From positions 34,592 to 98,591 of the forward strand of contig JAIBBS010000004.1 in assembly GCA_019694555.1 (NCBI GenBank): DNA of 64,000 nucleotides, given 5' to 3'. Below, in pieces: positions 21,707 through 34,275 of this stretch. Every line of letters begins with the position of its first letter. Position 1 is the stretch's first letter. The translations under genes and the position numbers were made by a program. Origin of the DNA: Nannocystaceae bacterium. Its GTDB lineage: Bacteria > Myxococcota_A > Polyangia > Nannocystales > Nannocystaceae. The notes beneath the pieces are model-generated. The model did no database searches and was not told the DNA's origin. It saw nothing but the letters and a program-made list of their open reading frames with translations.

Positions 21707-23158
21707 TCACTCGAGCAGCAGGAACTGCTCGACGATGCCGTCGGGCCGGCGCACCAGCACGGCCTTGATCACGCGCGCGGCGAGCACCAGGCGCACGCTG
21801 GTGACCTCGAGCCCGCCGCGTTCGCGCGGGCGATCGGCCTCGACGCGCAGCACCGTTCCGAGCGCCCGCAGCCGCGGCGCGGCGGCCCGCACCCGCGCGT
21901 CGTCGTAGTACCCGGCGAGCTCGGGTGCGAGCGCACGGCGATCGAGCGCGCCGCGCTGCAGCTGCTCGAACAGCGCGCCGGCGACCTCGGTCGCGGGCGG
22001 ACCGGCGACGGTCGGCACGGCATCGGGCGGCGCGATCACCAGCGCGAGCAGCTCCTGGTGGAGCTCGGACGCGGCCGGCGTCTCGGTGTTGCTCAGCAGC
22101 ACCACCGCGGTGCGCGTGCGCGGCACGATCGCATTGAACGCGACGAAGCCCGACACCGCGCCCGAGTGCGACCACACGACCTCGCCGGCTTGGTGTCGCA
22201 CGCCCAGGCCGCAGCCGTAGTCGGTGCTGCGACCGTCCCGCAGCGTGCGCGGCGTGGTCAGGCGATCGGTGTCGGCGCCCAGCAGCGATCGATCCGCGAG
22301 CGCGAGATCCCAGCGCAGCAGCTCGGTCGCGGTGGTGTAGATGCCGCCGGCGGCGTGGATCCACCCCGCGGCCTCGCGCGGCACCGGCTCGGGCTCGCCC
22401 AGCGCGAAGCGGCCGTGGCCCGCAGCGAGGCCCGCGGTGCCCGGCGCCGGATCGAGCGACGCGCCGGTCATGCCCACGCGGCCAAAGACGTGCTCGCGCA
22501 GCCACGCGCCCAGCGGCACGCCGGTCACGCGCTCGATCACGCGGCCCAGCAGGATGTAGCCGGTGTTGCTGTACGACCAGCGCGAGCGCGGCTCGAACTG
22601 CAGCGGCGCGCCGGCGTAGCGCTGCAGCAGCGCGTCGGGATCGATCGCCGCGCGCATGCGCGAGTCGAGGAAGTCCAGCGGGTAGTAGTCGGGATAGCCC
22701 GACAGGTGGGCGCCGAGATCGTCGAGCGTGATCTCGTCGGCGCGCGTGAGCTCGGGGTAGTACTTCGCGACCGGGTCGGCCAGCGAGAGCCGCCCCTGTT
22801 GCTGCAGCAGCACCGCAGCGGCGCACACGAACTGCTTGGTGATCGATCCGATCGCGAACGCGGTCTGCGGCGTGACCGGGGCGCCGCCGCGGACCGCGGT
22901 GCCGTGGCTGCGCACGAGCACGACCTCGCCGTCGCGCATCACGCCCAGCTGCGCACCGACCAGGCCGCGCGCGGTGGCCTGGGCGTCGAACCACGTCGCG
23001 ACGGCGTCGGCATCGAAGCGCGACGGCAGGCTCGGTCGCGCGGCCTCGACCGGCGCGACCGGGGTCGTGGTGCGCGGCCGTGGGCCGCAGGCGCCCGCGG
23101 CCAGCAGCGCGAGCGCCAGGGGCCACACGATCGTCGCGGCGCGGCGAGGACGGAGCAT
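21707..23158 (-). CDS. serine hydrolase, beta-lactamase class C/esterase family, lipoprotein
   Basis: 483 residues from ATG 23158 (MLRPRRAATIVWPLALALLA then the lipobox AAGACGPR); ATG 23179 is an alternative. Class C-type motifs: SxxK in AIGSITKQFV (~residue 110), YxN in RWSYSNTGYILLGRVIE, and the KTG-equivalent HSG in VVWSHSGAVSGFVAF. The C-terminal ~120 residues form a separate beta-rich domain (VEADRPRERGGLEVTSVRLV, VLVRRPDGIVEQFLL), as in Pab87-like or D-aminopeptidase-like members. It likely cleaves or esterifies a peptide or ester in the periplasm. Beta-lactam hydrolysis is only one possibility. Confidence 0.88.
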   Translation of the reverse strand: MLRPRRAATIVWPLALALLAAGACGPRPRTTTPVAPVEAARPSLPSRFDADAVATWFDAQATARGLVGAQLGVMRDGEVVLVRSHGTAVRGGAPVTPQTAFAIGSITKQFVCAAAVLLQQQGRLSLADPVAKYYPELTRADEITLDDLGAHLSGYPDYYPLDFLDSRMRAAIDPDALLQRYAGAPLQFEPRSRWSYSNTGYILLGRVIERVTGVPLGAWLREHVFGRVGMTGASLDPAPGTAGLAAGHGRFALGEPEPVPREAAGWIHAAGGIYTTATELLRWDLALADRSLLGADTDRLTTPRTLRDGRSTDYGCGLGVRHQAGEVVWSHSGAVSGFVAFNAIVPRTRTAVVLLSNTETPAASELHQELLALVIAPPDAVPTVAGPPATEVAGALFEQLQRGALDRRALAPELAGYYDDARVRAAAPRLRALGTVLRVEADRPRERGGLEVTSVRLVLAARVIKAVLVRRPDGIVEQFLLLE

Positions 23159-25284: not shown

Positions 25285-25950
25285 ATGGTGGCGCCGACGG
25301 ACGTATCTCCCCCTTCGCTGATGATCGCGATGCCGTGCAGAGCGGAAATTCGCGCAGCGGTATTCCCGGCGCTGCTGCAATGCATCATTTCGGCGACGTC
25401 GTACTGGCACCGACGATTCGGCGACGCGATGGTCACGACGCAGATCCTGCCGCGGACGCACGTGGTGACCGCCCGCAACCTGATCGCGGCGGAAGCCCGC
25501 GCCGGCGGCATCGACTGGGTCCTGTGGCTCGACGACGACATGGCACCGCCGGCGGACCTGCTCGAGCGCCTGCACGGCACTGCTCGACCGTTCGTGGGCG
25601 CGGTCGCCTATCGCCGCGAGCCGCCGTTTCAGCCCTGCGTGGCGCGCATCGTGGAAAACCGCGCGGAGCCGTTCGATCCCGAACCGGGACCGGACGGCCC
25701 GGTCGTCCCCGCCGATCTCACTGGTTTCGCGTGCGTGCTGACGCATCGCAGCGTGCTCGACGCGGTCTGGCAACGCACCGATGGGCGTCCCTTCGCCCTC
25801 GTGGGCGACGTCGGGGAAGACTTCCATTTCTGCCTGCAGGCGCGCAAGGCAGGAATTCAGCTGCACATCCTGTCGGACTGCGTCGTCGGTCACGCCGGCG
25901 ACCTGATCGTGGGTCGCGAGCATCGGCTCGCGGCGCTCGCGGCCGAGTGA
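25285..25950 (+). CDS. GT-A-fold glycosyltransferase-like protein
   Basis: 221 residues from ATG 25285 (start uncertain; the frame opens at 25180). Blocks VSPPSLMIAMPCR, VVTARNLIAAEARAGGIDWV, the DxD-like LWLDDDMAPPADLLERL, VGAVAYRREPPFQP, TGFACVLTHRSVLD and FALVGDVGEDFHFCLQARKA follow the family 2 glycosyltransferase pattern of nucleotide-sugar binding, DxD metal site and ED acceptor motif. Proteins of this short, single-domain type are often found in phages and cell-surface clusters. The 125 bp upstream lack a gene. It is 133 bp ahead of the fibre-like genes in the same direction, so it may modify their products or the glycan they bind. Confidence 0.75.
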   Translation: MVAPTDVSPPSLMIAMPCRAEIRAAVFPALLQCIISATSYWHRRFGDAMVTTQILPRTHVVTARNLIAAEARAGGIDWVLWLDDDMAPPADLLERLHGTARPFVGAVAYRREPPFQPCVARIVENRAEPFDPEPGPDGPVVPADLTGFACVLTHRSVLDAVWQRTDGRPFALVGDVGEDFHFCLQARKAGIQLHILSDCVVGHAGDLIVGREHRLAALAAE

Positions 25951-26083
25951 GCCGGCCGCAGCGCGAGCCTCCACGCACCCATCGACCCGTGTCTGCGCCG
26001 CCGCGTTCTCGAGCTGCGGCCGGATCTGATCTGAGTCAGCACCCTCAGCACCCCGCAACCCCCGCAACCGCAAGGAGCACCCC

Positions 26084-26488
26084 GTGCCCGGAATCGTCAC
26101 ACCTCTGTGGAACAAGAAGTCGTTCAACTTCAACAATCTGACCGCAGGCACGTCGGAGACGGACGTCGCGGTCAAGACCGTCGCATGCGAGCGGTATCGC
26201 GAGGGCTTGCTGATCGTGCGCGCGCATACCCGCGACATCGTGAACGCGTCGTCGAAGATCGAGATCGTCGCATACACCACTGCGCCCACCGCCGAGGACC
26301 CTTCGGTCGACTTCGTATTCACCACCGCCAGCGGAACCGCGACGGTCGCGAACGGCTCGACCTCGGTCGTGGCAAGCGTGGCGCTCGCGAACTTCGGCGC
26401 GTTCCTGCGGATCCTGGTCGTCGGCACGCGCGTGACCAGCGGCAACTGCAGCGCGGACCTCTCCGCCGATCTCGTGCTCAAGGAGTGA
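26084..26488 (+). CDS. small beta-module protein A (member of local four-gene family)
   Basis: 134 residues from GTG 26084, with AAGGAGC eleven bases upstream. The predicted structure is nearly all strands. It aligns over its whole length with the N-terminal ~130 residues of the gene at 27545: WNKKSFNFNNLTAGTSETDV matches RKRAFDFSSLTAGQSATEV, and IVAYTTAPTAEDPSVDFVF matches VVAAYDAAPSEDDPAQTFV. No signal peptide or Cys pattern. I recognise no named family. Position in an operon with beta-helix and glycine-repeat proteins suggests a structural part of a fibre or particle (inference). Confidence 0.75.
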   Translation: MPGIVTPLWNKKSFNFNNLTAGTSETDVAVKTVACERYREGLLIVRAHTRDIVNASSKIEIVAYTTAPTAEDPSVDFVFTTASGTATVANGSTSVVASVALANFGAFLRILVVGTRVTSGNCSADLSADLVLKE

Positions 26489-26493
26489 CACCC

Positions 26494-26913
26494 GTGGTGA
26501 GCGACTCGACGGTTCCGCCGCTGTGGCAGCTGCCGCCCGTCCTCGCTGCGTTCGACAACCTCCGCGGCTTCCGGTCACGAACCATCGTGCTCGCGCGGGC
26601 GATCCCCAGCGAGCCCGCGCGCGCGATCGCCATTGCGGCCAGGGTGCACGGCGCGGCGATCGGCATCGGCGCGACGCTGGTGCTGCGCGTGTGGCCGGCT
26701 GCACCGACTGACGAGGATCCCGCGCAGGACTTCCTCGGACCGGCGCCGCTCGCACAGCTCGCACTCGAGGCCGTCGCGGCGCCGGGACTCGCGCGCACGG
26801 TGCTCTTGCCCCCGCTGCCGCCGGCGCTGCAGCTGCAGCTCACCGCACAGCAGCCCGCCCTCGGTGTCGCCTGCCGCGCAACCATCAGCGCGGTGGTCAC
26901 CGCCATCGCTTGA
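26494..26913 (+). CDS. small beta-module protein B
   Basis: About 139 residues from GTG 26494 (GTG 26497 also possible), five bases after the previous stop; AAGGAG overlaps that stop region and serves as ribosome site. Strand-rich, with RTIVLARAIPSEPARAIAIA, TLVLRVWPAAPTDEDPAQDF and RATISAVVTAIA. The PTDEDPAQDFLGP block is the same motif found in the other three members (P-[ST]-x-D-D/E-P-A-x-x-F). Divergent from A and D but in the same position and size. No signal peptide. Function unknown. Confidence 0.7.
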   Translation: MVSDSTVPPLWQLPPVLAAFDNLRGFRSRTIVLARAIPSEPARAIAIAARVHGAAIGIGATLVLRVWPAAPTDEDPAQDFLGPAPLAQLALEAVAAPGLARTVLLPPLPPALQLQLTAQQPALGVACRATISAVVTAIA

Positions 26914-26972
26914 ATCGGTGGTTGCACGGGTATCGCGCCGACCGCCAGGACCTCGGGCAAGCGCCCGACGAC

Positions 26973-27548
26973 ATGACGAAAGCGAGAGCCATGATTGCCG
27001 ACCACCCATGCGAAGTTCCGCTCGCGCTCGCAAGCCCGGCACGCCAGGGCGAGCACTGGGCGGTGTTCGAGCTGCTGCCGAAGACGACGTTTTCCTTCGC
27101 CGCCCTGCTGCCCGGCGGCCGCCTGAGCTACGAGCTGGGGCTGCCCGTTCCACTCGTCCGGTGGCCCGAGTGCATGCTGGTCGTTCGCATGCACGGTGGC
27201 ACCCTCGCGGGCACGGGCGCACGCGCGACGCTGGTCTGCGAGCTCGCGACACGGTGTCAGGACGAGCCGGCCACGGCCTTCGTGTGGCCGCTGCCGCTGG
27301 CGTCCGCGGTGGTCGACGCGAATACGGCTGCGGGCTCCGCACTCATGACACGACTGCGCAGCGACGTGGGCACGCTGGCGCGATCATGGATCCACCTCGA
27401 CCAAGCCAGCGTCCCGACGACCGCAACGGTGACGCTCTCGGCGAGTCTGCTCGCGCGAGCGCCCGCGGACGCTCACCCGGAAGACCGCGCATGCCCATGC
27501 ACCCGCGAGGGCGAAGCGGCTGCGCCCCCCGCAGGAGGCTGGCGATGA
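26973..27548 (+). CDS. small beta-module protein C
   Basis: About 191 residues. Start not certain: ATG 26973 or 26991; the frame itself opens at a TTG overlapping the previous stop. The core is FELLPKTTFSFAALLPGGRL, then CMLVVRMHGGTLAGTGARAT and ELATRCQDEPATAFVWPLPL, and finally TATVTLSASLLARAP, again the four-part pattern of the family (F-x-F-x-x-L near the start, a VVR strand, a D-E-P-A-x-x-F block, a final strand). The C-terminal 25 residues are polar. Stop and next start overlap as ATGA. Unknown function. Confidence 0.65.
   Translation: MTKARAMIADHPCEVPLALASPARQGEHWAVFELLPKTTFSFAALLPGGRLSYELGLPVPLVRWPECMLVVRMHGGTLAGTGARATLVCELATRCQDEPATAFVWPLPLASAVVDANTAAGSALMTRLRSDVGTLARSWIHLDQASVPTTATVTLSASLLARAPADAHPEDRACPCTREGEAAAPPAGGWR
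27533..27538 (+). promoter_or_regulatory. Shine-Dalgarno AGGAGG for module D
   Basis: AGGAGG six bases before ATG 27545, lying inside the end of the preceding gene. It supports translational coupling within the operon. Confidence 0.8.
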
Positions 27549-28654
27549 GCCGCACGCTGTTGCGCAAACGCGCGTTCGACTTCTCGTCGCTCACGGCAGG
27601 ACAGAGCGCCACCGAGGTGCCCATCGCGTGTTGCGACATCTCGTGCTTCGGCGACGTGGTGATGGTGGTGCGGCTGCACAGCAATGCGATCACCGGCACC
27701 TCTGCGATCGTCGTGGCGGCGTACGACGCCGCGCCGAGTGAAGACGATCCTGCGCAGACCTTCGTGTCCCCCAGCGCCGCCGCGCAGGTGAGCATCGACG
27801 CCTCGTCGGCCGCGGGTGCGCTGCTGGTCGCCGGCCTCGACGCGGGCTTCGGGGACGCGCTGCAGATCCACGTCACCGGCACGCGACAAGGCAGCGACAC
27901 GGTCCGCGCCGAGATCTCGATCGAGCTGGTGGGTCGCCCCGGCGTCGCCGCGCCGCGGCGCAGCCTCGCCGACACGCTCGTGGTGGGAAACACGACGCAG
28001 GGCACCGATGTCGTCGTCACCAGCGGCGACGAGGTCCGCGGTGACGACGGCTCGGCCGCCGGAGCGCTGTCACTGCGCGGCGGCGACGGCACTGCGGCGA
28101 GCAACGGCGGTGCGGTCGCAGTGCGCGGCGGCAGCTCGGCCGCGGGTGCCGGCGGTGGCATCTCGCTGACGACCGGCACCGGTGCCACCGACGACGGCGA
28201 CCTCGACCTGTTGACCCCCAGCAGCGGGGGCGCGGTGCGGCTGCGCACGCAGTCGACGTTTGTCGGGACCACGCTCGACGCGCTGACCTACGCGGCAACG
28301 CTGACCGTCGCGCTGGGCGGCGGCACGCAGGACATCGCGCTGGCGAGCCTGGCCACCGATGGCCACAACCTCAAGCTCGACGTCGCCGTCACCGCCCACG
28401 AAGTCGGCGTGGCGGCGAGCTTGAAGAGCGGGCTCATCGCGCAGACGTTCTACCGCGCAACCGGCACGGTGCTCTCGCTGACGGCGCACGTCACCAACCA
28501 GCAGGGCGTGGGCGGCGTGGGAACCGATCTGTCGTTCGCGTTGGTGGCATCGGGCAGCACGATCAACCTACGGATCGTCAACGCCGGCGCTTCGAATCGC
28601 ACGGTCTACGTCACGGTGCGATGGTTGCGACAAGAAGGCGGGTTCGCGTCGTGA
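27545..28654 (+). CDS. beta-module D fused to glycine-repeat and tail-fibre-like C-terminus
   Basis: 369 residues. Residues 1-130 are the family beta-module (RKRAFDFSSLTAGQSATEV; VVMVVRLHSNAITGTSAIVV; APSEDDPAQTFVSP). Residues ~145-225 carry short glycine-rich beta repeats (GALSLRGGDGTAASNGGAVA, VRGGSSAAGAGGGISLTTG), the kind seen in phage tail fibres and other trimeric fibres. The C-terminal ~140 residues form a beta domain (TLTVALGGGTQDIALASLAT; VLSLTAHVTNQQGVGGVGTD; INLRIVNAGASNRTVYVTVR). No signal peptide. This is the strongest sign that the operon encodes a fibre or adhesin-like structure. Overlaps both neighbours by 4 bp. Confidence 0.75.
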   Translation: MSRTLLRKRAFDFSSLTAGQSATEVPIACCDISCFGDVVMVVRLHSNAITGTSAIVVAAYDAAPSEDDPAQTFVSPSAAAQVSIDASSAAGALLVAGLDAGFGDALQIHVTGTRQGSDTVRAEISIELVGRPGVAAPRRSLADTLVVGNTTQGTDVVVTSGDEVRGDDGSAAGALSLRGGDGTAASNGGAVAVRGGSSAAGAGGGISLTTGTGATDDGDLDLLTPSSGGAVRLRTQSTFVGTTLDALTYAATLTVALGGGTQDIALASLATDGHNLKLDVAVTAHEVGVAASLKSGLIAQTFYRATGTVLSLTAHVTNQQGVGGVGTDLSFALVASGSTINLRIVNAGASNRTVYVTVRWLRQEGGFAS

Positions 28655-29841
28655 GCGGCGGCGTGCGTTGGGAGCCGATGGACGCGGAGCAGCGGCGCGC
28701 GGCCATCGTCGCGTTGCTGCAGGACGACCACGATCGCCACTGGGCGCGGCAGTCGGCCTCGCCGGCGGCGCAGCTCGGCTTCGCCGCCAGCACCGTGGCG
28801 CCGGTCGCCTTCGCCCACGGGCAATCCGGCTGCCAGGCCTACGCCGCGACGGCCAAGACGCGCCGCAGTCCCCGTTTTGTGTTCCTGCGCGAGATCGGCG
28901 GACCGTCGTGCCTCGCGGCGTATCTGCAATCACCGCTGCTGCTGTCGCAGCTGCCCCGCAACGTCACGATCGTCATCGACCAGCCGTGTCCCGTGCGAGA
29001 GCCGCTGATCCTGCCCAGCGGTGTGACGCTGCGCGGCTGCTCGCTGTACGGCAACTCGCGGCTCGAGCTCGATGTACCGGGGGCTGCGTTCGCGATCGAG
29101 ACCCGACTGGCGTCGCGCGGTGTGGTGCTGGAGGACCTCGAGATCACACGGCTGGGTGGGTCGAGCCGCTGCGTTCTGCTGCGCGGCAGCGGCCACCGCG
29201 TCCGCCACGTCCGGTTCTCCGGGGTGTGGGACTGGGCGATCCAGGGCGCGTTCGCGTCGTCGATTCTGATCGATCATGCGCAGGTGATCGGCAACTCGGG
29301 CGGGGTCCGGGCCGTGGGCGGAACGCATTGGCACATCCGCAACTGCCATATCCGAGACGCGCCCTACTGGGCCATCGACCTGGTCGGCAGCGACGCAGCC
29401 GTCGTCGAGGCAGGTCGGTTCGAGAGCAACGGCAAACCTGGGCTGCCGCTGCACGCCCGCGGCGCAGTGCAGACCGATGCCCGCGCGACGCTGGTGGCCG
29501 GGAACTACTTCGAACAAAACGGCTGGCTCAGCCCGGTCCCGGGGACCGCGGTGCGCCTGGCAGCCGCGGCCCGCGGGGCGCGGATCCTCTACAACATGAT
29601 GGCGGCGGATGTGATGGTCTTCGACCAGGAGGCGGTGGTCGGGGCGCAGGTCGCGTCGCCGCCGCCGTATCCGTACAACGTGAACGCCTCGGGCTGGGTG
29701 CCGCTGCAGGGCTTCGTCGACTCGATCACGATCGGACGGCACTCGTTCGCGTTCAACGTCGACGACGACTGGGGCGGCAACTTCTACGCCGCCCGCGGGC
29801 TCGCCACGTCGTCGATCGCGACCGTGACGACGCTGCCCTGA
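28651..29841 (+). CDS. right-handed beta-helix protein 1 (pectate-lyase/tailspike-like)
   Basis: 396 residues from GTG 28651, overlapping the previous stop (GTGA). The N-terminal ~95 residues include a helix AEQRRAAIVALLQDDHDRHW. Then RRSPRFVFLREIGGPSCLAA, VTIVIDQPCPVREPLIL and GVTLRGCSLYGNSRLEL open a parallel beta-helix with repeated rungs (VVLEDLEITRLGGSSRCVLL; HIRNCHIRDAPYWAIDLVG; TLVAGNYFEQNGW; ARILYNMMA). The last ~70 residues are a different domain. Right-handed helices of this sort occur in polysaccharide lyases and phage tailspikes. No catalytic triad can be asserted. No signal peptide. Confidence 0.8.
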   Translation: MSGGVRWEPMDAEQRRAAIVALLQDDHDRHWARQSASPAAQLGFAASTVAPVAFAHGQSGCQAYAATAKTRRSPRFVFLREIGGPSCLAAYLQSPLLLSQLPRNVTIVIDQPCPVREPLILPSGVTLRGCSLYGNSRLELDVPGAAFAIETRLASRGVVLEDLEITRLGGSSRCVLLRGSGHRVRHVRFSGVWDWAIQGAFASSILIDHAQVIGNSGGVRAVGGTHWHIRNCHIRDAPYWAIDLVGSDAAVVEAGRFESNGKPGLPLHARGAVQTDARATLVAGNYFEQNGWLSPVPGTAVRLAAAARGARILYNMMAADVMVFDQEAVVGAQVASPPPYPYNVNASGWVPLQGFVDSITIGRHSFAFNVDDDWGGNFYAARGLATSSIATVTTLP

Positions 29842-29866
29842 GCGCCTCGAGTGACCGCAGCAGAAC

Positions 29867-29871
29867 GGAGG
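29867..29871 (+). promoter_or_regulatory. Shine-Dalgarno GGAGG for beta-helix 2
   Basis: GGAGG five bases before ATG 29877 in the 35-bp gap between the two beta-helix genes; it decides that start. Confidence 0.8.
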
Positions 29872-29876
29872 AAACG

Positions 29877-31277
29877 ATGCGCACGCGGACAACCACCAGC
29901 GACAGCGACAGCGATGGCGGGCGCGCGGACCAGCGCGGGGGCGACGACCCGCGCGGGCTCGAGGACCGGCGCGGCCTCGAGGCCAGGGCCTTCGAGAGCC
30001 CCGAGCTCCTCGCGGCCGCGGCGGGGCGCGAGGCGATGGCGTGGCGGCGCGCCGCAGCGCGGGGCGACTGGGGGGGGAGCGACTGCGGATGCCCATCGGC
30101 GCAACGCGGCGCCGCGGCCGATGCCTTCACCGATGCCCGCGGGCCTGCACCCGCCCCGGACGCCTCGCCGGCCGTCCCTCCCGGGTTGGCGCCCTCGCCG
30201 GAGCCCGACGCGGCGCCGCTGGGACCCCTTGCGCCGACCTGCGTGCCGTATCCACTGGGCAAGACACGCACGAACGACAACTTCATCTTCCTGCGCGAGA
30301 TCCTGCGCCAAGACGGCAGCGCACCGGCGGATCCGGTGCAGGCCGGCACGTGCCTCGCGACGTGGCTGGCAAACACCGCCGCTGGGATGCCGCCTCCCGA
30401 CGGCGCACCGTTTTCGACGTTGGTGATCGATCAACGCGTCGAGCTGACGCAGCCGATCGTGATCCCGCCGCGCATGACGATCCGAGGCGTGGGTCCGCGC
30501 GGCGCTGCGGTGCTCTCGTTCGGCGGGCTGGTCGCCAATACCGCGGCGATCACGTTCATGCCGGCCGCGCCCGGCGACCCCGATGCCGGCATCGAGCCGG
30601 CCCCGTCCTACTCGACGCTCAGCGATCTGACGATCGAGTACGCGTCGCCTCCCGGCGACGCCGCGATCATCGGCTTGTCCGCCGACGTGTTGGGCACCAT
30701 CGTGTACCTGCAGCGGCTCACCCTACGCAACTGGGACATCGCCTTCGCAACGGTGGGCTACTTCCCGTTGGTGCAGGAGTGCACCTTCGAGAACAACGTC
30801 ATCGGCGTCGACGTCCGCACCAACGGCAACGCGCTGCGCATCGAGGGCTGCGCCTTCACGGGAAACTCCGGCAACGCGGTGAACCTCAACTCGCCGGGCA
30901 CGGGGATCGTGTCACCGTCCGTCGACGCCAACAGCGTCCTCGTCACGCGCTGCACGTTCTCCGGTAACGGACTGGGCGTGTACGTCGACCGGCATCAGGG
31001 CGCGCGCATCATCGGCAACGCGTTCGTCGGCAATACGGGTGGTGGGATCTACGTGACCAGCAATGCCCGTGAGGCGAGGATCGTGGGGAACTTCTTCGAT
31101 GGAGGGGATCGGTTTGCGTTCGAGGATGGGGATATGATTGCGCGGGTGAGCACGCATCATCATCAGTGGGGGTTTAACACGGCAGTCGGACTTCCAGGGC
31201 AACAAGACCCGGATCCCGAGTCGTTAGGAGTAGAGCTGATTTGGAGCGCCGTGATCGTCGACATTGAGGAAATGTAG
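29877..31277 (+). CDS. right-handed beta-helix protein 2
   Basis: 466 residues. The N-terminal ~120 residues are charged and Pro/Ala-rich (DSDSDGGRADQRGGDDPRG; PAPAPDASPAVPPGLAPSP), probably disordered. From ~130 the block NDNFIFLREILRQDG, LVIDQRVELTQPIVIPP and MTIRGVGPRGAAVLSFGG repeats the entry motif of beta-helix 1. Rungs follow: LQRLTLRNWDIAFATVG, VQECTFENNVIGVDVRTN, LRIEGCAFTGNSGNAVNLNS, VLVTRCTFSGNGLGVYVD, ARIIGNAFVGNTGGGIYV and ARIVGNFFDGG. The final ~65 codons use many more A/T third positions than the rest, suggesting a recombined 3' end. No signal peptide. Confidence 0.82.
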   Translation: MRTRTTTSDSDSDGGRADQRGGDDPRGLEDRRGLEARAFESPELLAAAAGREAMAWRRAAARGDWGGSDCGCPSAQRGAAADAFTDARGPAPAPDASPAVPPGLAPSPEPDAAPLGPLAPTCVPYPLGKTRTNDNFIFLREILRQDGSAPADPVQAGTCLATWLANTAAGMPPPDGAPFSTLVIDQRVELTQPIVIPPRMTIRGVGPRGAAVLSFGGLVANTAAITFMPAAPGDPDAGIEPAPSYSTLSDLTIEYASPPGDAAIIGLSADVLGTIVYLQRLTLRNWDIAFATVGYFPLVQECTFENNVIGVDVRTNGNALRIEGCAFTGNSGNAVNLNSPGTGIVSPSVDANSVLVTRCTFSGNGLGVYVDRHQGARIIGNAFVGNTGGGIYVTSNAREARIVGNFFDGGDRFAFEDGDMIARVSTHHHQWGFNTAVGLPGQQDPDPESLGVELIWSAVIVDIEEM

Positions 31278-31360: not shown

Positions 31361-32032
31361 CTACTCCCATGAAAGGGAGTACGGCGCAGCGCCTCCGAGT
31401 GCAACAAGGTCATCTGGGAGAGGCCGCCATTCCACCATCTCGAATGGCTCCTGCTCAACTGAAACGCAGGCCCCCTCGTACCACGCATAGTAAAGCTGGA
31501 CCAACTGCGTATTGGCGGACTCGAAGTACGTCAACCCCGTCTCTTCCACGTGGACTACGCGCCGCGTCCAGCGCGTCGCCTCTTCGACGCCACCACCCGC
31601 CACATTGAAGACCTCACCCGAACAGTCCGGCGCCAGGAAGTAGCCAATCTCCGCGAGCTCCGTACGATGCGCTGCGCAGTCCGCCGCAAGTCCGGTGCCC
31701 AAGGCGTAGCGGAGGTCGACGTAGCGGTCGCCGAGCCAGTACACCCGCACGCACGGTGGGCCGACCGTGCCTTGGGTCCCCGGCTCCGTGATCACGCAGG
31801 GCAGGCCACCGCCGCATGTCGGCTCGACCACGGCGTCGATCGCCGTTCCCATCGCGTCCCGCAGCACCCAACGCGGCGCCACCACCATGCCACCGCGCTC
31901 CACTTCTCCGCCCGCGAGCTGGCGCCCCGCGCGTGGTGCATCGCCAGCAGCGCGCGTCTCCTCGCGGGTCGCCGCGACGTCGCAGGCAAGCAGGCAAGCA
32001 AGCACCGTGATGAGTCTCGTGTGTCCGCTCAT
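31361..32032 (-). CDS. lipoprotein, paralogue of its upstream neighbour
   Basis: 223 residues from ATG 32032. Signal/lipobox LITVLACLLACDVAAT. The mature part aligns with the protein encoded at 32037-32852: WVLRDAMGTAIDAVVEPTCG versus WVLYDADGVAVDAVVAPFCV, then PPCVRVYWLGDRYVDLRYAL versus PQCVRVIWHEGAFVDLPYGT, and both end PYSLSWE/PYSLRWE. Four to six Cys are conserved. Codon use is less GC-biased than in neighbours. It begins 4 bp after its paralogue's stop. Surface or periplasmic lipoprotein of unknown role; convergent with the beta-helix operon across 83 bp in which I see no clear terminator. Confidence 0.75.
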   Translation of the reverse strand: MSGHTRLITVLACLLACDVAATREETRAAGDAPRAGRQLAGGEVERGGMVVAPRWVLRDAMGTAIDAVVEPTCGGGLPCVITEPGTQGTVGPPCVRVYWLGDRYVDLRYALGTGLAADCAAHRTELAEIGYFLAPDCSGEVFNVAGGGVEEATRWTRRVVHVEETGLTYFESANTQLVQLYYAWYEGACVSVEQEPFEMVEWRPLPDDLVALGGAAPYSLSWE

Positions 32033-32036
32033 GTCC

Positions 32037-32852
32037 TCACTCCCACGGTTCCCAGCGCAGCGAGTACGGAGGATTCGGCAGCAGCTCCACCGCCCAGTCG
32101 GGCACCGGTAGCCACGGCCTGCCGCCGCCCAGCAAGTAGTTCTCCACGCAGTCGCTGCCCAGCCAGCTGTATGCCGGGTACAGCCCCATCGGTGGCTGGT
32201 CGGCGCTCTCGTATTCGAACCGGCCGTCCGCGAACGCCTTGATTTTGCGCTCCCAGCGGTACGTGGCGCCGATGCCCTCCCCTCCGGGAAAGTACGCAGG
32301 CGGTGCGCACGTCGCCGTCGCGAACGCACCCGGCGGATGCTCGGCATCCCACAGCGGACCTCTTCGGCAGTCGTCGAGCAAGCCGCTCGAGGTCCCGTAC
32401 GGCAGATCCACGAACGCGCCTTCGTGCCAGATCACCCGCACGCATTGCGGCAGCACGTCGCCCCGGCTCCCAGGCTCGGGGATGTTGCACTGCGCCACGT
32501 CCACGCAGAATGGTGCGACCACGGCGTCCACCGCCACGCCGTCCGCGTCGTACAGCACCCACCGCGACGGCGCCGGCGGCGTCCCCGGGTCACCGGTCGT
32601 GCCGCTCTCGCTGCTGCCGCTGCTGCCGCCGCCACCGTGATGCGTCGTCTCGCTGGTGACCGCCGATCCACTGCTCGCGTCCGCGCTGCCGGACGTGGTG
32701 CTCGGCGATCCACTGCTCGCGGCGCCGCTGGTGCTCGTGCCCCCTGTGCTGCCGCTCGCGGCGACCGAGCCGCCGTGCTGGCACGACCCGCACACGAGCA
32801 ACGTGACCACGCCGAGCGCGATGCCGGCGTTCCCCCTGCCCTTGCTCGCCAT
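32037..32852 (-). CDS. lipoprotein with Ser/Gly/Thr spacer, paralogue of 31361-32032
   Basis: About 271 residues from ATG 32852 (ATG 32864 is also possible). Signal GIALGVVTLLVCGSCQHGGS with the lipidated Cys after CGS. An ~85-residue Ser/Gly/Thr spacer (TSGAASSGSPSTTSGSADAS) precedes the conserved domain beginning RWVLYDADGVAVDAVVAP. Later blocks: CVRVIWHEGAFVDLPYGTSS, YRWERKIKAFADGRFEYES, VPDWAVELLPNPPYSLRWEP. The spacer is absent in the shorter paralogue, so spacer and domain evolve separately. No family recognised. Confidence 0.78.
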   Translation of the reverse strand: MASKGRGNAGIALGVVTLLVCGSCQHGGSVAASGSTGGTSTSGAASSGSPSTTSGSADASSGSAVTSETTHHGGGGSSGSSESGTTGDPGTPPAPSRWVLYDADGVAVDAVVAPFCVDVAQCNIPEPGSRGDVLPQCVRVIWHEGAFVDLPYGTSSGLLDDCRRGPLWDAEHPPGAFATATCAPPAYFPGGEGIGATYRWERKIKAFADGRFEYESADQPPMGLYPAYSWLGSDCVENYLLGGGRPWLPVPDWAVELLPNPPYSLRWEPWE

Positions 32853-33117
32853 CGTCCCTGCCATGGTCGCGTCCGCGCCCTTCCGTGTCCGCTTTCGTCG
32901 CACCCGCATGTCCGTGCGTGTGACGGCCCGCAGCGGCGAGCGACTGCAGCATACTGCGCTGCATGCGGATGTCGAGCGCACGACCTGCAACACCGCGGGC
33001 ACGCGCTCCGACGGCCCGCTTCGGAACGCCGTCCCCGTCATGCTCGCATCGCGATCACCACGGTCACGCAATTTTCTGCTTGCGCGCGCGCGTTCTTTTT
33101 TGTTTGGTCGTGTTGCC

Positions 33118-34275
33118 ATGCCAGGACCGCGTCGGCAACACGCTGAACTCCCCCTGCCCGGCGCGTCGACGGCCGCCGCGACGGACGAACCGCTGGAAGC
33201 CGCGACGACGGCGCCCACCGAGCGCAACCCTGCCGCCGCATCGGATGGCATCTCCGCCAAGGCGCGCCGCAGGCCGCGAGTGCCCACCGGGCCCAAGCTC
33301 GCGCGTCGCCCCGGTGGGGAATCGATTCCTGCGCCCGGCCTCGGACGCGTGCCACCCACGCCGCGCGTCGCCCCCTCGCCGCGCCCGGTAGGCCCCGGCC
33401 CGCGCGGCGCGGGTCCGTCCGCACCATCCGCACCGCCCGCTCCGAGAACCCCAGCCTCTCGCGTCGCCGGGATGCGTGTCCTGTTGCTCGGGCCCGATCC
33501 CATGTTCGCCAGACGCTGGCGCGGAGTCTTTCGCGCGCGCGAGGTCCATGCATTCGAATGTCGCGACCTCGGCGAGCTCGCCAAGCACCTGCGGCGCGCC
33601 GGCAAGGACGTCGATGCCATCGTCTTCGACCTCGCCTTTCGCGGTGGCGAGCCCTGCGATCTCGTGCGCGCCGTGGCCTCGTGCAGTGCTCCGTGTGGCC
33701 TCGTCCTCGCTGCCGCCGCCCCTTGCGACCTGCTCTGCGACGCCGCCGCACGCCTCCGCACCGACGCCGTCGTCGCGCAGCCCGCCACCGAGGCACAGAT
33801 GGTCGCCGCCCTCGCCAAGGCGCGCGACGCTGCTCACGCCCGACGCACTCCCGAGAATCCCGACGGCGCGCTGCTCGACGGCGCCCTCGCGCTGGACCCC
33901 GGCGAGCCCGAGCCCGACCTCGCCGACGCGATCCTCGATCGCTGCTTCGAGGTGCTGCGCGCCGCGGGCCTGCGACATCCGCACCACCTCGAAGCCCTGC
34001 GCATGCGCGCCCTGGGCATGACCGACGCGGGCCTGGCAGAGTCCCGCGGCGTCAGCGAGGGCAGGATCCGCGCGCGCGTCGGCGCCGCGATGCGAAGCAT
34101 CGGCGCCGACGACGGCTATGCGCTGCTCGCAATCCTCGCACGCACCCTCGCCGGTCACCTGCACAGCTCCGCACGCGAACGTGGCGTGCCCGCCCACGCC
34201 CTGCTCGACGAAGCCTGGCGGCCGCTCGCCGACCAGCTCAACGTGAGCGCCAGTGCGCTCGCGACGACGGCGTAG
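33118..34275 (+). CDS. receiver-like/HTH regulator with proline-rich N-terminus
   Basis: 385 residues if started at ATG 33118; ATG 33472 would give just the folded part. Residues ~1-118 are Pro/Ala/Arg-rich and disordered. Residues ~119-235 resemble a receiver domain (MRVLLLGPDPMFARRW, central Asp in VDAIVFDLAFRGG, GLVLAAAAPCDLL, VVAQPATEAQMVAAL), although the acidic pair and Lys of true receivers are not all clear. The C-terminal ~100 residues have a sigma-70-region-4/LuxR-like helix-turn-helix (HLEALRMRALGMTDAGLAES, VSEGRIRARVGAAMRSIG). Likely an atypical response regulator. An AT-rich stretch just upstream (33090-33110) may hold its promoter. Confidence 0.65.
   Translation: MPGPRRQHAELPLPGASTAAATDEPLEAATTAPTERNPAAASDGISAKARRRPRVPTGPKLARRPGGESIPAPGLGRVPPTPRVAPSPRPVGPGPRGAGPSAPSAPPAPRTPASRVAGMRVLLLGPDPMFARRWRGVFRAREVHAFECRDLGELAKHLRRAGKDVDAIVFDLAFRGGEPCDLVRAVASCSAPCGLVLAAAAPCDLLCDAAARLRTDAVVAQPATEAQMVAALAKARDAAHARRTPENPDGALLDGALALDPGEPEPDLADAILDRCFEVLRAAGLRHPHHLEALRMRALGMTDAGLAESRGVSEGRIRARVGAAMRSIGADDGYALLAILARTLAGHLHSSARERGVPAHALLDEAWRPLADQLNVSASALATTA

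Follow-up and report, generated by a model that had tools for sequence, protein, structure and literature searches.

The whole stretch analysed here, referred to as the window, comprises 64,000 nucleotides from the genome of a Nannocystaceae bacterium (assembly GCA_019694555.1, contig JAIBBS010000004.1, positions 34,592 to 98,591) and contains six genes, O1 to O6, the first four of which share a protein module that also occurs in other genomes of the phylum, beside genes of very different kinds that are here termed passengers. The module looks like a genuine protein family, and its association with passengers of many kinds, several of them apparently unexported hydrolases, likewise looks real. 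Since related modules often stand directly before diverse enzyme-like genes without an obvious export signal, the set is proposed to build an enzyme-carrying fibre or particle, in which the modules of O1 to O4 would assemble into a base that bears the O4 fibre and tethers O5 and O6, the whole probably acting on carbohydrate outside the cell; this reading is put forward tentatively, with somewhat less than an even chance of being correct. An initial annotation of the same DNA had described an operon of related beta-modules and beta-helix proteins as a candidate undescribed fibre or particle, an observation that is partly confirmed by the present analysis and an interpretation that is partly supported.

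The six genes run in the same direction from 26084 to 31277, as had been annotated, and show 4-bp overlaps (ATGA for O3/O4 and GTGA for O4/O5) and Shine-Dalgarno-like sites (AAGGAG before O1 and O2, AGGAGG before O4, GGAGG before O6). Genes were called with a crude script based on GC content at third codon positions (GC3) and start codons are uncertain. Handles refer in what follows to genomes (G, with G000 being the window's own), to loci or contigs that were read (L) and to database proteins (P). The features of the region are:

26084..26488, + strand: O1, single-module protein (predicted jelly-roll), 134 residues, AAGGAG site
26494..26913, + strand: O2, divergent single-module protein, 139 residues
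26991..27548, + strand: O3, 185 residues, a module followed by a CPC tail at the C-terminus; open reading frame (ORF) open from TTG 26910
27545..28654, + strand: O4, whole gene, consisting of module base, connector and glycine-rich shaft with tip
27545..27955, + strand: O4 base, predicted jelly-roll module, the only part of O4 folded confidently by AlphaFold 2 (AF2)
27956..28051, + strand: O4 connector PRRSLADTLVVGNTTQGTDVVVTSGDE, of phage-fibre type
28052..28654, + strand: O4 glycine-rich shaft and variable tip, 200 residues
28651..29841, + strand: O5, beta-helix passenger, 396 residues
29877..31277, + strand: O6, beta-helix passenger, 466 residues, with an N-terminal SDCGCPSAQ motif
25321..25950, + strand: glycosyltransferase-like neighbour with weak PF20691 and PHROG matches, judged to lie outside the conserved unit

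O3 probably starts at the ATG at 26991 rather than at the overlapping TTG at 26910, judging from the database protein P0017, which has the same 185-residue form; its CPC and GGWR ends are kept in the homologue P0019.

One module of about 134 residues is common to O1, O2 and O3 and to the N-terminal part of O4. All four were retrieved by a profile built from 16 modules without any window sequence, with expectation values (E) of 6.2e-29 for O1, 2.4e-19 for O2, 2.5e-14 for O3 and 2.7e-28 for O4, the next-best ORF of the window being found at E 4.2, although this test is not fully independent because the 16 rows were recruited in rounds begun with window seeds. The most constant residues of the module are, in O1 numbering, F16, R46, H48, P73, F77 and S127, and the motif P-[ST]-x-[DE]-[DE]-P-[AS]-x-x-F, which had been attributed to all four genes, is exact in O1, O2 and O4, whereas O3 reads RCQDEPATAF instead. 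AlphaFold modelling, which had been suggested as a check and was run on O1 and O4, predicts an eight-stranded jelly-roll for O1 (predicted local distance difference test score 88.9, predicted template modelling score 0.82).

Pfam yielded no hit for O1, O2 and O4, a sub-threshold match (SepZ) for O3 and sub-threshold hits (DUF2242, DUF7077) for one further module relative, while the module had 0 matches at E 1 in a sequence search of the PDB. Relatives of O1 were found neither in INPHARED (50,697 phage records) nor in PLSDB, relatives of O4 were absent from INPHARED, and no module relative emerged from one IMG/VR scan or from GTDB contigs, such contig scans requiring exact short patterns and possibly omitting the window's own kin, so that copies are missed; genome searches, on the other hand, do find relatives. 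Within these searches the family can be regarded as undescribed among Pfam, PDB sequences and the phage, plasmid and viral-contig sets, as had been supposed, and no description of a module-passenger system was recognised in the open-access literature searched.

The family is rare. A single-sequence search matched 8/59 genomes, the window's own included, and the module profile matched 9/29 genomes of the family Nannocystaceae and 13/377 of the phylum, the latter from four families. Ten module matches fall at five loci of the window's genome, namely the window (four), C39 (two), C98 (two), C91 (one) and C126 (one); weak module-like hits at C193, C278, C322 and C223 were left uncounted (C193, read as L011, has no profile hit), and the hits G362:C177 and G303:C647 fall outside the set of loci read. 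In total, 36 loci (the window and 35 others) hold 53 modules, with up to four per locus and a single module at 26 of them. Two or three modules stand together at eight loci besides the window (at L024 with a gene between them; L097, which holds one split module, was excluded). The test that had been suggested, co-occurrence of all six genes across genomes, fails: O6 and the glycosyltransferase-like gene are each present in 1/29 family genomes, the window's own. O1 has 11 database homologues at 62-88% identity, the window protein itself excluded, and equal longest contigs of O1 and O4 homologues (P0002 and P0024, 6596) and of O3 and O4 homologues (P0019 and P0022, 3255) hint at a conserved neighbourhood.

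A coding-like ORF of at least 300 residues starts on the same strand within 450 nt at 25/32 module loci compared with 113/293 other genes of the same loci. This control was run because DNA so rich in GC often contains long ORFs; it leaves out the window, L010 (whose next ORF belongs to the module itself) and loci ending too soon. The passengers are strikingly dissimilar to one another. The Pfam scan covered 27 of 35 evaluable passengers (L027, L028, L088-L091, L097 and L101 were left out), and in 8/27 the curated cut-off was reached: a beta-lactamase with BTRD1 (L009), Amidase_2 with PG_binding_1 (L026), Trypsin_2 (L060), Peptidase_M10 (L063), PLDc_2, i.e., phospholipase D (L086), and Beta_helix in O5, O6 and the L100 passenger. 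The passengers of L025 and L062 lie just under the trypsin cut-off, L010, L059, L066 and L094 have other sub-threshold matches, and HExxH motifs were noted by eye in both L024 passengers, L059 and L061. A strongly hydrophobic N-terminus is found in 2/35 passengers (L028 and L066, both following incomplete modules) versus 50/311 other genes of the same loci; for O1 to O6, too, the lack of a signal peptide that had been annotated is supported by hydrophobicity, the one measure applied.

A cysteine motif, CGC or CxCGG, occurs in the first 300 residues of 12/35 passengers versus 7/311 other genes (Fisher 5e-9) and the looser CxC in 15/35 versus 32/311 (5e-6), P values that are too small because genes and copies within one genome are related; a smaller count of CGC gave 9/17 passengers versus 5/217 other genes. 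The motif is found with catalytic domains that are unrelated to each other and in members of two families, examples being GPCKCGGSC in L093 and KRCACGGAC in L100 (one family) and PDCGCGGDC in L027 and SDCGCPSAQ in O6 (the other family), the CGC of O6 lying at residue 70. At L100, which comes from another family than the window, a module is accompanied by a beta-helix passenger bearing CACGG, an arrangement resembling that of O6. Module and partner share one ORF in two cases: in L010 the module is joined through a CGC linker to a region resembling alpha/beta-hydrolases (its PETase match lies under the cut-off), and O4 is a second fusion, of module and fibre. Because modules elsewhere precede very different and mostly non-fibre passengers, the recurring unit is best described as one or more modules with an exchangeable passenger.

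Other genes around modules are of interest in their own right. Downstream of the module and the amidase gene of L026 lies a giant ORF (L026:2-8176, 2724 residues, cut by the contig end) in which carboxypeptidase-regulatory-like stretches were seen by eye. In each of two genomes the module gene is immediately preceded by a regulator gene (L032:1106-1909 and L065:9733-10641), the two regulators being homologous (E about 1e-22), with a LuxR or sigma-region-4-like helix-turn-helix following a variable receiver-like part; a conserved regulator beside modules was considered and rejected, as no relationship to these two could be detected for the regulator-like ORF of the window (33472-34275, E 0.28).

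In another scheme, the modules would serve as partners of the hydrolases (as export chaperones, folding partners or inhibitors), keeping each of them inactive or soluble until release, with no larger assembly. Module genes do precede the passenger, with one module at 26/36 loci, and proteases and a cell-wall enzyme, potentially harmful to their producer, are among the passengers; on the other hand, an active-site inhibitor is hard to reconcile with a single family that serves unrelated enzyme folds, and the fusions in L010 and O4 as well as the presence of up to four modules per locus also speak against the scheme, which is considered unlikely.

Fold and cysteines bear on another possibility, that of surface or developmental coat proteins, resembling those of spores or fruiting bodies, that are cross-linked through cysteines and released by lysis of sister cells. 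Ena endospore appendage pilins have a jelly-roll fold and no signal peptide, and the modules resemble them in being predicted jelly-rolls and, by hydrophobicity, in lacking such a peptide; the structural similarity that Foldseek reported to an endospore appendage subunit of Bacillus is weak (E 5.6e-4, template modelling score 0.42), and some passengers are cysteine-rich. Nevertheless, many other jelly-rolls match the module equally or better, module cysteines are not conserved (0-3 each in 20 modules) and modules, unlike the pilins, adjoin enzyme-like genes; a coat is considered highly improbable. Charybdis elements are described (PMC12324425) as small marine mobile elements with a conserved N-terminal part that is a triple-helix bundle and not a jelly-roll, a difference that is drawn from this description and not from sequence comparison.

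The fibre element of the proposed particle rests on O4, the module copy that had been described as fused to a glycine-rich shaft and is so. Besides O4 itself there are six homologues, five of which (P0023-P0027) share 57-62% identity with it over the first 169 residues and one, P0022, 79%; in the 200-residue tip P0022 reaches 89.5% identity, and the other five align in parts only, mainly along the glycine-rich shaft. By these alignments O4 is a conserved base with an exchanged tip, a tail-fibre-like design. The connector SLADTLVVGNTTQGTDVVVTSGDE recurs at 65% identity over 26 residues in an ORF of L067, a phage contig from IMG/VR (E 9e-7, as reckoned against the candidate stretches). A major head protein is encoded on this contig as well (phrog_371, E 7e-19). 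A stretch like it occurs twice in a 1234-residue ORF of L135 (genome G104), next but one to a collagen-like gene matching tail-fibre families (phrog_5073, E 1.2e-13); neither connector ORF was itself matched by PHROG. This part of L135 (G104:C66, 2125-10361) is a cluster of long structural-looking ORFs, one of them collagen-like, on a 190-kb contig that is possibly a large phage or prophage. Among the O4 homologues, the connector region of P0026 matches the tail-fibre family phrog_7121 (E 5.9e-6), and P0022-P0025 and P0027 have no PHROG tail-fibre match.

A link between modules and phage is provided by G278, in which a prophage tail cluster (with a phrog_6 baseplate wedge match, E 8.9e-34) contains a cassette of three modules; it is flanked by a tail gene on one side and tail-fibre genes on the other and is encoded on the strand opposite to theirs. 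Similar three-module cassettes occupy three further places in this genome, each with a different downstream gene (loci L088, L089, L090 and L091), and the cassette looks like a mobile one. The relationships with L067, L135, phrog_7121 and G278 make phage ancestry likely for at least the connector and shaft of O4. INPHARED contains no match for the O4 connector, the L067 stretch, P0023 or the glycosyltransferase-like gene, which is evidence against a widespread phage origin.

The last two genes, O5 and O6, had been annotated as right-handed beta-helices, in agreement with their PF13229 Beta_helix scores of 29.0 and 42.7 bits, respectively (cut-off 25.9). They are 31% identical to one another over an 87-column stretch (E 7e-7), their PHROG tail-spike matches are weak (E 0.011 and 0.021), and O6 has no PDB sequence match.

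It could therefore be asked if the whole set is a tail-fibre cassette left by a prophage, with modules as phage adaptors or chaperones, O4 as fibre and O5 and O6 as spikes, the remainder of the phage having been lost and the genes either decaying or being used by a resident phage. The likeness to phage tail fibres and tailspikes consists of the conserved base and swapped tip of O4, its phage-type connector, the beta-helices and the cassette within the G278 tail cluster, and GC3 of O1 to O6 (0.81-0.89) is under the window mean (0.907, standard deviation 0.038, 36 genes). However, the eight correctly framed flanking ORFs that were scanned contain no phage hallmark (no tail, head or lysis gene), consistent with what had been annotated, and the G278 cassette alone sits with phage structural genes. 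The base of O4 is a jelly-roll module without a PHROG match, and no module relative was found in the phage records or the IMG/VR scan. Moreover, all six ORFs are open, the window's genome has five module loci, and most module relatives precede other, not fibre-like, kinds of protein. A prophage remnant is considered rather unlikely. The fibre role initially inferred for the genes gains support from the design of O4, its connector and P0026, whereas the passengers that follow modules elsewhere are mostly not fibre-like.

Passengers that mostly lack signal-like N-termini could also be effectors of an extracellular contractile injection system (eCIS) or a type VI secretion system (T6SS), with the modules as loading adaptors. 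Polymorphic cargo of this kind, mostly without signal-like N-termini, is a feature in common with eCIS and their eCIS_core effectors, and TssC/VipB is present in the window's genome. The PF04984 contractile sheath, however, has 0 matches at E 1e-5 in G000 (94.55% complete) and none in G001; it occurs in 163/377 genomes of the phylum, comprising 7/13 module genomes (6 without) versus 156/364 others. The eCIS_core domain (PF13699) is absent from G000-G003 and present in 15/29 family genomes. An association of the motif CACGG with eCIS_core (DUF4157) proteins was not borne out, as none of the 7 correctly oriented eCIS_core loci (12 were fetched) has CxC before or near the core. A link to eCIS was accordingly rejected for the window, given that its genome has no sheath or eCIS_core match and that CxC was not found near the core in these 7 loci. 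VipB occurs in 23/29 family genomes, G000 included, and in 8/9 of those with modules, but it is absent from G016, which has three modules. On contig C30 of G011, a partial module at 26635 and two VipB matches at 62611-68323 lie about 36 kb or more apart; this, too, can be cited in favour of injection. Taken together, an effector role in eCIS or T6SS is very improbable indeed.

Regarding the surroundings of the set, the glycosyltransferase-like gene that had been annotated as preceding it is indeed present, with weak matches to PF20691 and PHROG glycosyltransferases, among them phage glycosyltransferases and TAGT. Because these matches are weak, it lies 133 bp upstream of O1 and it is found in one family genome, it was not counted in the conserved unit; it has possibly been acquired. 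The flanking genes that could be named encode an MBOAT acyltransferase, an M50 peptidase carrying a CBS domain, a Ser/Thr kinase and a protein of beta-lactamase fold, and the sole PHROG 'tail' matches in the flanks belong to one beta-lactamase-fold protein (21710-23113, PF00144 226 bits). On the minus strand, 31361-32347 and 32037-32930 encode adjacent proteins that look related by eye (shared RWVL and cysteine pattern) and have no PHROG match, the former also having no Pfam match.

Returning to the enzyme-carrying particle, a plausible scheme is that module proteins would together form a base and that O4 would extend from it as a fibre, its exchangeable tip binding a target surface. O5 and O6, replaced elsewhere by various hydrolases, would be held by this base through binding between module and passenger, for which CGC/CxCGG would probably be the docking or cross-linking element, and would bind or cut polysaccharide. 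The assembly may then be released or displayed without Sec, by lysis or another route.

Several observations weigh against this proposal. Passengers that are hydrolase-like or beta-helical by curated score are a minority, 19/27 of those scanned having no Pfam match above the cut-off and 13 none at all, and CGC/CxCGG is lacking in 23/35, O5 among them, besides the relatedness that inflates its statistics. Gaps of at most 20 nt are not clearly commoner after modules (9/32) than after other genes (52/293). An over-long start call may hide a signal sequence, and the start of L101 may be misplaced because a membrane-like stretch is located further in. Jelly-rolls are common, so that the fold tells little about function, and AF2, predicting the whole of O4 as a single chain, gave shaft and tip no confident structure. 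O6 is confined to the window's genome among the 29 of the family, and none of the export machines examined (sheath, eCIS_core, VipB) tracks with the modules.

A more general proposal extends the particle to a secretion-independent display system of Myxococcota, in which polymerising jelly-roll subunits derived from phage fibres would dock exchangeable hydrolases (proteases, lipases, cell-wall enzymes and beta-helix depolymerases) via CGC/CxCGG, the window holding an elaborate copy in which subunits of four types would be combined with two depolymerases and with a targeting fibre whose tip can be swapped; this is regarded as doubtful. If true, these bacteria would possess a modular scaffold in which targeting in the manner of phages is coupled to exchangeable enzymes and that is independent of known injection machines, and the module profile would provide a handle on several dozen proteins, some of which are recognisable hydrolases without an obvious export signal.

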